Positions 47,964 to 50,489 of a stretch of DNA of 64,000 nucleotides are shown here, piece after piece. The notes below the pieces were generated by a model that did not search any database, was not told where the DNA came from, and saw only the letters and a program-made list of their open reading frames with translations. This DNA is from Mycolicibacterium aromaticivorans JS19b1 = JCM 16368. GTDB taxonomy: Bacteria > Actinomycetota > Actinomycetes > Mycobacteriales > Mycobacteriaceae. The number at the start of each line of letters is the position of its first letter. Position 1 is the first letter of the stretch. The DNA lies in NCBI RefSeq assembly GCF_000559085.1, contig NZ_JALN02000001.1, positions 2,046,001 to 2,110,000 of the forward strand. Reading direction: 5' to 3'. Position numbers and translations under genes: made by a program.

Positions 47964-49028
47964 ATGTCCGCTTCTTTGAAGACCCCGCTGACCGAACTGA
48001 TCGGCATCGAACACCCGGTGGTGCAGACCGGCATGGGCTGGGTGGCCGGCGCCCGTCTGGTCTCGGCGACATCCAATGCCGGTGGCCTCGGCATCCTCGC
48101 CTCGGCGACGATGACGATCGACGAGCTGGCCACGGCCATCAAAAAGGTGAAGGCCACCACCGACAAACCCTTCGGCGTCAATATCCGGGCCGACGGGGCA
48201 GATGCCGGCGACCGGGTCGACCTGATGATCCGAGAGGGTGTCAAGGTGGCGTCGTTCGCCCTGGCGCCGAAGCAAGAGCTGATCGCGAAGCTCAAAGAGG
48301 CCGGGTCCGTGGTGATTCCGTCGGTCGGCGCGGCCAAGCATGCTCGTAAGGTGGCCGGCTGGGGCGCCGACGCGGTGATCGTGCAGGGCGGCGAGGGCGG
48401 CGGTCACACCGGCCCGGTCGCGACCACCCTGTTGCTGCCGTCGGTGCTCGACGCCGTCGACATCCCGGTGATCGCCGCCGGTGGTTTCTTCGACGGGCGC
48501 GGTCTTGCCGCGGCGCTGTCATACGGCGCGGCGGGGGTCGCGATGGGGACCCGCTTCCTGCTGACCTCGGATTCGACTGTGCCCGAGGACATCAAGCAGC
48601 GGTACCTCACGGCCGCGCTGGACGGCACCGTGGTGTCCACCCGGGTCGACGGCATGCCACACCGGGTGCTGCGGACCGAACTCGTCGAGAAGCTCGAGAG
48701 CGGCTCGCCGGTCCGGGGTTTCACCGCGGCGGCGCGCAATGCGGCCAAGTTCAAGAAGATGTCGCAGATGACGTGGGCGGGGATGATCCGCGACGGTCTG
48801 GCGATGCGCCACGGCAAGGACCTCACCTGGTCGCAGGTGCTGATGGCCGCGAACACCCCGATGCTGCTGAAGGCCGGGTTGGTCGAAGGCAACACCGAGG
48901 CGGGTGTGCTGGCCTCCGGCCAGGTCGCCGGGATCATCGACAACCTGCCGTCGTGCGCCGAGCTGATCGACACCATCGTCACCGACGCCGTCAAACACTT
49001 GCAGTCGGCCAGCTCCTACATCGTGTAA
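47964..49028 (+). CDS. ipdC: IpdC, flavin-dependent enoyl reductase of the NPD family
   Basis: A 354-residue FMN barrel: LTELIGIEHPVVQTGMGWVAGARLVSATSNAGGLGILASATM, VIVQGGEGGGHTGPVATTLLLPSV, VIAAGGFFDGRGLAAALSYGAAGVAMGTRF. In M. tuberculosis IpdC belongs to the KstR2 regulon and acts on a hydroxylated HIP-CoA intermediate. Four bases after ipdB. Its stop codon lies inside the first of the three SatD operators. Confidence 0.9.
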   Translation: MSASLKTPLTELIGIEHPVVQTGMGWVAGARLVSATSNAGGLGILASATMTIDELATAIKKVKATTDKPFGVNIRADGADAGDRVDLMIREGVKVASFALAPKQELIAKLKEAGSVVIPSVGAAKHARKVAGWGADAVIVQGGEGGGHTGPVATTLLLPSVLDAVDIPVIAAGGFFDGRGLAAALSYGAAGVAMGTRFLLTSDSTVPEDIKQRYLTAALDGTVVSTRVDGMPHRVLRTELVEKLESGSPVRGFTAAARNAAKFKKMSQMTWAGMIRDGLAMRHGKDLTWSQVLMAANTPMLLKAGLVEGNTEAGVLASGQVAGIIDNLPSCAELIDTIVTDAVKHLQSASSYIV

Positions 49029-49098
49029 AGCTATCCGCTTCAATTTGCCAAAATGAAGCTATAATCTTCATATGGCTGAAGTGAAGGTTATCGCTTCA
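49026..49098. promoter_or_regulatory. Three 28-bp-spaced operators and TATAAT promoter of the SatD gene
   Basis: Three 17-bp palindromes of the type TGAAG-N7-CTTCA start at 49026 (TAAAG ctatccg CTTCA), 49054 (TGAAG ctataat CTTCA) and 49082 (TGAAG gttatcg CTTCA), exactly 28 bp apart. The middle one encloses a consensus -10 TATAAT (49060-49065) that is six bases from the ATG at 49072, so the transcript is leaderless. The first overlaps the ipdC stop, the third lies in the first codons of the SatD gene. Confidence 0.8.
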
Positions 49099-49713
49099 TC
49101 ATGTCGGGCGGCTCTGATCGGCGACGTCGTCGACTCCCGCCACGCCGCCGACCGCGCGGACCTGCACCGCCGCGTCACCGACGCGCTTGGCGCAGTCGCC
49201 GCGGACCCTCCCGCTTTCACGGTCGGTGACGAGTTCCAGGGTAGTTATCCGAGCGTCGGCGCCGCGATCGACGCCGCGTTGACCGTGCGCTTGGCGCTCG
49301 ACCCCGACATCGACGTGCGCTTCGGTATCGGTTGGGGCGAGATGACCGTGCTCGACTCCGACACCGGCATTCAGGACGGCCCCGGTTGGTGGTCGGCGCG
49401 CGAAGCCATCGAGTGGACGGCGGCCGCCCAGCAGCAGCCAGCTCTGGCGACGGTGCGCACCGCCTACCGACGCCACGGCGACGCCGGGCCCGACCCCGAC
49501 GCGGTCAACGCCGCCCTGTTGTGTCGGGACCACCTGCTTGGATCGATAGATGCCCGGTCCCTTCGGCTACTGCGGGGACTGCTCGACCACAAGACGAAGA
49601 AGGAACTGGCCGCCATGGAAGGTATCAGTGCATCGGCGGTGTCCCAGCGGACCGCGCGCGATGGACTGGATCTGCTGGTGCTGGCGTCCGAACAGCTGAG
49701 GGCCGTCCGGTGA
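49072..49713 (+). CDS. SatD-family protein with C-terminal helix-turn-helix
   Basis: A 213-residue protein. Residues 12-90 show AALIGDVVDSRH, FTVGDEFQGSYPSVGAAIDAALTVRLAL and DVRFGIGWGEM, the SatD-family core. The order of acidic strand, GDEF-like hairpin and FGIGWG strand recalls the palm fold of nucleotide cyclases (inference). Residues 165-205 (LRLLRGLLDHKTKKELAAMEGISASAVSQRTARDG) are a sigma-region-4-like helix-turn-helix. The start is leaderless. Overlaps the membrane gene by GTGA. It probably binds the three flanking palindromes. Function unknown. Confidence 0.8.
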   Translation: MAEVKVIASSCRAALIGDVVDSRHAADRADLHRRVTDALGAVAADPPAFTVGDEFQGSYPSVGAAIDAALTVRLALDPDIDVRFGIGWGEMTVLDSDTGIQDGPGWWSAREAIEWTAAAQQQPALATVRTAYRRHGDAGPDPDAVNAALLCRDHLLGSIDARSLRLLRGLLDHKTKKELAAMEGISASAVSQRTARDGLDLLVLASEQLRAVR

Positions 49714-50489
49714 GTGGCGTCGCGGTGTTTCTGATCGCCGTCGGCTGCGCCGATGGCCTGCGCAGGTTAACGCAGCGCCGGTGGCCGGCCGTCGTCATCG
49801 GTCCGGTGGTCGCGGTGATCACGGCCGTGCTGTGCGGGCTGCTGCATCCCGGTGATCTAATCCTGGTCGGTATCGCCGCGGCTGCCTCAGTGTCATGGGA
49901 GCTGTCATGCACCCGCGCCGAGCGGGCCGGCGGCCGCTGGCAAGTGGCGCCGCTGGTGTTGTTCGCGGCCGTGCTGGCGGTGCTGATCCTGCTGTCCGGA
50001 TTGGGTTCGCCGGTGACCGGCCCGGTCAAGGCCTGGCTCGGGTGGGCCCCGGTGACCGGGACCGATCCGACCCGAATCATGTTGGTGGTCGGCGTGATTG
50101 TGCTCCAGATCGTGACAGGTAACCAGCTGGTGCGTCTACTGCTGGGGTCGGTCGGCTCGGTCAAGCCCGCCGGCGAGCCGCAGCCGTCTGACAAGTTGAA
50201 GGGCGGGCGGCTACTCGGGCCGATGGAACGGTTGTTGATCGTGGGCCTGGCCCTGGCCGGGCAGCTGGCCGTCGCGTCGGCGGTGGTGGCGGCCAAGAGC
50301 ATCATCCGTTTTCCGGAGATCAACGCCCAAAAGGCCAGGGAGAACGGCGGAATCGGAATCGGCACCGGCGGGCAGGAGCGCAGCGACCCGGGGATCGGAA
50401 TCGATGATGTGACCGAGTACTTTCTGGTCGGCAGTTTCGCCAGCTGGATGGTGGCGCTCGGTGGTCTCGCCCTGACCGCTCTCGGTTAG
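49710..50489 (+). CDS. Integral membrane protein paired with SatD (DUF3307-like)
   Basis: A 259-residue membrane protein with about six hydrophobic segments: AVFLIAVGCADGL, AVVIGPVVAVITAVLCGLL, LILVGIAAAASVSW, APLVLFAAVLAVLILL, MLVVGVIVLQIVTGNQLV and LLIVGLALAGQLAVASAVVAA. The region VVAAKSIIRFPE and the late TEYFLVGSFASWMVALGG look like the conserved part of DUF3307 proteins, which often neighbour satD genes. Starts at a GTG overlapping the SatD stop. Role unknown; a membrane partner or target of the SatD protein is inferred. Confidence 0.7.
   Translation: MSGVAVFLIAVGCADGLRRLTQRRWPAVVIGPVVAVITAVLCGLLHPGDLILVGIAAAASVSWELSCTRAERAGGRWQVAPLVLFAAVLAVLILLSGLGSPVTGPVKAWLGWAPVTGTDPTRIMLVVGVIVLQIVTGNQLVRLLLGSVGSVKPAGEPQPSDKLKGGRLLGPMERLLIVGLALAGQLAVASAVVAAKSIIRFPEINAQKARENGGIGIGTGGQERSDPGIGIDDVTEYFLVGSFASWMVALGGLALTALG

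Follow-up and report, generated by a model that had tools for sequence, protein, structure and literature searches.

Evenly stepped inverted-repeat arrays at satD genes of several bacterial phyla as probable SatD binding sites

The start of satD in Mycolicibacterium aromaticivorans JS19b1 lies in an array of three inverted repeats (TGAAG-N7-CTTCA) set exactly 28 bp apart (Table 1), and evenly stepped palindrome arrays stand at satD genes of several bacterial phyla. Because such arrays recur at satD and their letters covary with the DNA-reading part of the protein, SatD very probably binds these palindromes. We consider it likely that SatD dimers bind the array cooperatively and repress their own leaderless operon, where binding, cooperativity, and repression are all inferred from sequence comparison.

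Table 1. Features at and around the satD start (positions in the window, the 64,000-nt stretch that was analysed).
Feature	Position	Strand	Remarks
Upstream gene (ipdC of the earlier note; Pfam NMO)	47964..49028	+	stop codon starts box 1
Box 1	49026..49042		TAAAGCTATCCGCTTCA; 1 mismatch to TGAAG-N7-CTTCA; right arm at the -35 position
Box 2	49054..49070		TGAAGCTATAATCTTCA; exact; holds the -10-like TATAAT
-10-like hexamer TATAAT	49060..49065	+	A of the ATG is 7 nt past its last base
satD	49072..49713	+	213 aa; N-terminal cyclase/GGDEF-like domain, C-terminal helix-turn-helix
Box 3	49082..49098		TGAAGGTTATCGCTTCA; exact; inside satD codons 4 to 9
Predicted recognition helix, SatD residues 187-196	49630..49659	+	secondary structure of the model; covariation peak at 186-196
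Downstream membrane protein, divergent DUF3307-like	49710..50489	+	GTG start; 4-nt overlap with the satD stop; membrane protein by hydropathy

The earlier note on this DNA had described three palindromes at exact 28-bp steps, all with the arm TGAAG. Their starts and spacing are as described, but the arm of box 1 reads TAAAG, because the box opens with the TAA stop codon of the upstream gene. The overlap with the ipdC stop codon is real, as are the TATAAT in the centre of the middle box, six bases before the ATG, and the position of the third box within satD codons 4 to 9. The letters of box 1 double as stop codon and putative operator, and by eye the stop is TGA instead of TAA in several orthologs. 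At the -35 position this locus has GCTTCA, a poor match. Judging from the distance between the -10-like hexamer and the ATG, the satD transcript would be leaderless.

The spacing had also been called hard to explain by chance. The window has two exact boxes compared to 0.01 expected; a chance origin of the array was rejected by box counts and phase. In the whole 6.30-Mb genome, the exact TGAAG-N7-CTTCA sequence occurs five times, two of these in the array, and the two-box 28-bp pattern, allowing up to three mismatches, has no occurrence outside the satD array. A wide regulon of such arrays was therefore rejected, and additional single-box targets of SatD in this genome could exist. One exact single box (L001 1501-1517; C1:230116-230132 of the genome) lies just 5' of a gene that looks GntR-type by eye, with no partner box at 28 bp. 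The other exact single boxes are one in L004, within long reading frames, and a third on contig C3.

We compared the 5' region of all clear satD genes in the genus. A satD match was present in 121 of 297 genomes, strong in 117 (E below 1e-70) and weak in four (G239, G384, G464, and G510), which were left out of the satD count. In 114 of the 117 orthologs, a start codon (ATG in 107, GTG in 7) stands 1 nt past the end of a box with up to three mismatches; no such arrangement was found in G451, G504, and G535. Inside this start-adjoining box, TANNNT occupies the -10 place in 113 of the 114. The best further box upstream lies at exactly -28 in 112 of the 114 (unique best in 105), and the best further box downstream at exactly +28 in 111 (unique best in 111). 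Among these 114 orthologs, 25 of 30 arm columns carry at least 1.5 bits, and the 11-bp spacers between boxes carry at most 1.3 bits, except for the start codon. Scanned over the 297 genomes, the two-box pattern was found in 97, with none for the reversed control, and satD is present in 95 of these 97, the exceptions being G338 and G421. The G421 match looks like chance.

Box 3 lies in coding sequence, and it is without mismatch in 81 of the 114 orthologs. Moreover, of the 111 orthologs with Ser at codon 9, 109 encode it by TCA, compared to 6.8% TCA among Ser codons elsewhere in these genes. The letters of box 3 are thus kept by codon choice, seemingly under selection for the DNA sequence itself.

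By eye, some genus members (L105, L141, L142, L150, L153, and L155) have an extra box upstream at a 28-bp step, and thus an array can gain units; the coding box is weak or absent in several. In G451 (L049 around 1500), box 1 runs straight into satD codons; the start codon is gone along with boxes 2 and 3, seemingly through a deletion between or near the repeats. In G338 (L159, about 1500-1545), two boxes are well preserved at a 28-bp step, and no satD follows. Upstream of these boxes lies a reading frame of nitroreductase-like appearance, and another contig (C35) has a 3' fragment of the partner gene. The G338 boxes would be a relic operator.

Pfam family PF16264 (SatD) was matched in 18 of 296 genomes at the level of the phylum and in 54 of 345 at the level of the class, where the reading covered those of the 54 that were extracted as loci. 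A more distant scan used the SatD proteins of three divergent loci, and the best 80 of 499 confirmed stretches were kept; by their record titles, many of these 80 are from Bacillota, with Anaerolineaceae, Sphaerochaeta, a Thermodesulfobacteriaceae, and others also present. Ninety-two of 108 distant loci, under 70% identity to each other, formed the sample for the pair test. A matching palindrome pair was found upstream of satD in 48 of the 92, with a best spacing of 28 bp in 16, 29 in 26, 56 in 2, 58 in 3, and 47 in 1. The controls gave pairs in 0 of 92 in-gene regions and in 3 of 89 far-upstream regions, at 18, 45, and 54 bp. Likewise, 100 dinucleotide shuffles gave a mean of 1.84 loci (largest 7), and spacings of 28 and 29 together never exceeded 1. 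At this strict threshold, 44 of the 92 distant satD loci had no pair. With duplicates included, 57 of 112 loci had a pair (20 at 28 bp, 29 at 29, 7 at 56 or 58, and 1 at 47).

The half-sites differ among these arrays. TGAAG-N7 arrays occur in several actinobacterial families and include L071 of another class, ATNAG-N7 arrays were found in L066, L164, L179, and L183, and TCAAC- or TCACC-N8 arrays in L064, L062, and L065. Bacillota have ATGCA-N7 or -N8 arrays and other half-sites. Scans of L067, L070, L074, L076, L077, L078, and L174 gave no accepted array. Some arrays (L247, L255, and L223) consist of near-identical copies, e.g., GATGCAGTTATAACTGCATC twice in L255, which suggests recent duplication of the unit or homogenisation of the boxes. 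Lack of conservation next to satD in related genomes had been named in the earlier note as a refutation; this did not come about, since the array is present at nearly all genus orthologs and, with other half-sites, reaches other families and phyla.

A phage or plasmid origin was rejected, with no match in phage records and one in plasmid records (Arthrobacter). The latter, L186, consists of satD and the following gene on Arthrobacter plasmid pZXY21 (CP017422), which is typed as conjugative, and no array was detected in the scan of this locus. A defence system was also rejected, with no PADLOC match up to E 1.

The step of the array mostly follows the length of its boxes. We counted spacers at 18 loci with ATGC[AG] half-sites, where 5-10 bp inside the palindrome and 8-14 bp between palindromes were searched. 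The inner spacer is 7 bp in 9 loci and 8 bp in 9, and all 18 loci have an 11-bp spacer between palindromes, L216 with an 8 in addition. Odd-length boxes mostly step by 28 bp and even-length boxes mostly by 29, because the 11-bp spacer between palindromes is kept while the inner spacer varies. The table of box lengths and steps was made without L218 (150 aa or less), L064 (a duplicate of L187), L070, L074, and L186. Exceptions are even-length boxes at a 28-bp step (L020, L062, L065, L069, L194, L238, and L259) and odd-length boxes at a 29-bp step (L178, which has a TGAAG half-site, L256, L264, and others with ambiguous register). From these sequences, the contact between neighbours seems more conserved than the distance between half-sites within a dimer. 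At 10.5 bp per turn, 28 bp corresponds to 2.67 turns, which places neighbouring boxes on different faces of the helix; dimers bound one after another would follow a spiral around the DNA instead of aligning on one side of it. Equal 28-bp spacing fits cooperative binding and may reflect it, short of proof of cooperativity.

Covariation points to the protein that would read these boxes. The tests used 56 non-redundant loci of the 66 with an array score of 15 or more. Half-site similarity correlated with identity of the SatD recognition helix when N-domain identity was conditioned out (partial r 0.444), and 0 of 5000 label permutations reached this value (largest 0.176), where the permutation did not keep the tree, a worry that is eased by conditioning on the remainder of the protein. 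Among 195 eleven-residue windows along SatD, residues 186-196 ranked first (0.453), and the best window ending before residue 175 scored 0.147. The top covarying columns are Q192 and S188. A peak exactly at the DNA-reading helix would be surprising if a protein other than SatD read the boxes. SatD had earlier been put forward as the binder; that prediction is now strongly supported by conservation of the array at satD and covariation of its half-sites with the recognition helix.

The window protein is a member of the SatD family, whose name derives from secretion and acid tolerance in Streptococcus mutans. It passes PF16264 at 55.2 bits (cut-off 29), and the best match in a protein search, named from Mycolicibacterium aichiense, is 94% identical. 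The AF2 model has a pLDDT of 93.2, with residues 1-4 poorly modelled. An alignment of 29 sequences and the model place an N-terminal domain before a C-terminal helix-turn-helix, as in other PF16264 members. By fold searches on the predicted model, the N-terminal domain has a palm-like, nucleotide-cyclase/GGDEF-like fold; in Pfam up to E 5, SatD matches PF16264 only and no cyclase family. D18 and D53 are invariant in the 29 SatD proteins, where their match to the metal-binding Asp residues of cyclases is read from sequence motifs only.

Among the closest known systems are class III nucleotide cyclases and GGDEF domains (Ma1120, Rv1264, Rv1900c, PleD, and DgcB) and GTP cyclohydrolase III. Unlike the class III cyclases, SatD has, by motif reading, a Trp at the position of the catalytic Asn, and unlike cyclases and GGDEF proteins it has its domain fused to a C-terminal helix-turn-helix. 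One-component regulators that combine a GGDEF-like or cyclase-like domain with a helix-turn-helix include the CdaR/PucR-type regulators and mycobacterial LuxR-type regulators with cyclase domains. These share with SatD a cyclase/GGDEF-like sensor and a DNA-binding domain, but their domain arrangement is unlike that of SatD, and we know of no phased operator array for either type. Regulator 3onq is weakly present in the Foldseek list for SatD. The earlier note knew of no described SatD operator, and none was found in the open-licence PubMed Central literature. In the available excerpts of three papers, SatD is described as a protein of acid tolerance, as DNA-binding, or as an accessory gene that is essential, and those excerpts give no operator or mechanism (PMC10326533; PMC12005413; PMC11323703).

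In the mechanism that we propose, SatD would be a one-component regulator whose dimers occupy the promoter of satD in series, with one inverted repeat read by the C-terminal helix-turn-helix of each dimer. Adjacent dimers would touch in a fixed geometry, giving a step of 28 bp where half-sites are 7 bp apart and mostly 29 bp where they are 8 bp apart. The bound array would block RNA polymerase and thereby repress both satD and the DUF3307-like membrane protein predicted to share its transcript. A signal probably enters through the N-terminal cyclase-fold domain, perhaps as a metal-bound nucleotide. Counted from the inferred start, the three boxes in the window extend from -46 to +27 and take in the -35 position, the -10 hexamer, and the start of the coding sequence. 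This is about the stretch that RNA polymerase covers, and therefore occlusion is the simplest reading. Lambda CI and other cooperative autorepressors likewise have several inverted repeats over a promoter and regulate themselves. By contrast with arrays of the lambda CI type, the 28- or 29-bp step at satD is off one helix face and is common to phyla while the half-site letters drift.

SatD could instead bind the array but mainly activate, or switch between activation and repression according to where the array lies relative to the promoter. A scan run without a shuffle control found a promoter-like match with up to three mismatches at 41 of the 56 array-bearing loci; the match overlaps a box in 27 of the 41 and has no box overlap in 14. 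Eight Bacillota loci (L197, L199, L200, L222, L224, L247, L252, and L266) are also compatible with activation, in that their arrays end just upstream of the -35, with the last box centre at a constant 40-41 bp upstream of the -10 centre. However, in the window box 2 holds the -10 and box 3 is set among the first codons, positions that would hinder the polymerase, and five loci (L204, L225, L226, L230, and L260) have a box that occupies the TTGACA-17-CATAAT spacer, between the -35 and the -10. We therefore regard a mainly activating or switching SatD as improbable.

It is far less probable that the boxes belong to another transcription factor, e.g., one that regulates the ipd genes lying upstream. 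In favour of such a factor, box 1 shares bases with the stop codon of the preceding gene, and the sequence before satD resembles that same gene in many orthologs. However, the array persists where the upstream sequence differs by eye, which includes orthologs in the genus where that sequence no longer resembles the end of an ipdC-like gene; it is found at satD loci of other phyla; and the box letters track the recognition helix of SatD. The array goes with satD, and a role as a site for the upstream ipd genes was rejected. An action of the palindromes as RNA hairpins or as DNA recombination sites, rather than as protein operators, is slightly less probable still. The boxes are inverted repeats, and by eye the G451 deletion lies near them, which would suit either role. 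However, given the inferred leaderless start, boxes 1 and 2 would not be transcribed with satD, and neither a constant 28/29-bp phase nor covariation with a DNA-reading helix is expected of hairpins. SatD acting as an autorepressor on its own array thus stays the preferred reading.

The second gene of the operon bears on what would be repressed. In the window, this partner has no match to PF11750 (DUF3307) in Pfam, and DUF3307 was found in 4 of 10 scanned downstream proteins (L247, L225, L199, and L190), the others, with that of the window, having none over the cut-off. An alignment of satD-linked DUF3307-type proteins of other phyla (A6, from which L071, L178, and L182 were left out because their chosen frames look wrong) matched the window partner in hhalign at 97.9% (E 4.1e-13) over 112 columns, in the C-terminal half only. 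By this comparison, the operon partner of satD is a predicted divergent DUF3307-type membrane protein.

A partner match was found in 120 of 297 genus genomes, and the strong ones lie beside satD (coordinates compared by eye). Partner frames were read in 12 genomes, of which eight had partial partner matches and four served as comparison. Six genomes (G315, G364, G437, G493, G496, and G519) combine an open satD frame with a partner damaged by a frameshift, an internal deletion, or loss of the conserved C-terminal motifs; these are not six independent events, because four of the genomes look related. G444 may have a frameshift near the partner start. Both genes are damaged or lost in G451, whose partner gene is internally deleted, and in G504, both altered in each, and in G338, which has no satD and a fragment of the partner. 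No clear intact partner without satD was seen in the 297 genomes, with G540, whose partner lies 118 bp from a contig start, and G506, which has only a marginal 23-residue match, set aside.

According to the available excerpts of PMC11323703, satD is essential in Streptococcus pyogenes, though it is an accessory gene (178 of 249 genomes). Together with the pattern of damage in the genus, this excerpted report weakly suggests that the partner may be harmful when it is unrepressed. A wider reading, which we offer tentatively and consider rather doubtful, is that SatD and a DUF3307-type partner form a widespread two-gene module in which SatD, gated by a nucleotide in its cyclase-fold domain, polymerises on the array and silences a harmful membrane protein. 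If so, loss of satD with the partner kept would be damaging, as in a toxin-antitoxin pair, and this would account for a gene that is essential yet accessory in Streptococcus pyogenes, as far as the excerpts of that study describe it (PMC11323703).

SatD is a little-studied regulator present in several bacterial phyla, and it now gains a concrete predicted role as an autoregulator with a cyclase-fold domain that would read an inverted-repeat array of nearly invariant step. The comparison supplies candidate operator sequences for dozens of species and points to S188 and Q192 as likely specificity residues. It also poses a physical puzzle, namely which protein contact keeps the 11-bp spacer between palindromes as half-sites and inner spacing drift. 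Moreover, it makes testable what DUF3307 proteins do and why satD is both essential and accessory in Streptococcus pyogenes, as it appears in the excerpted source.
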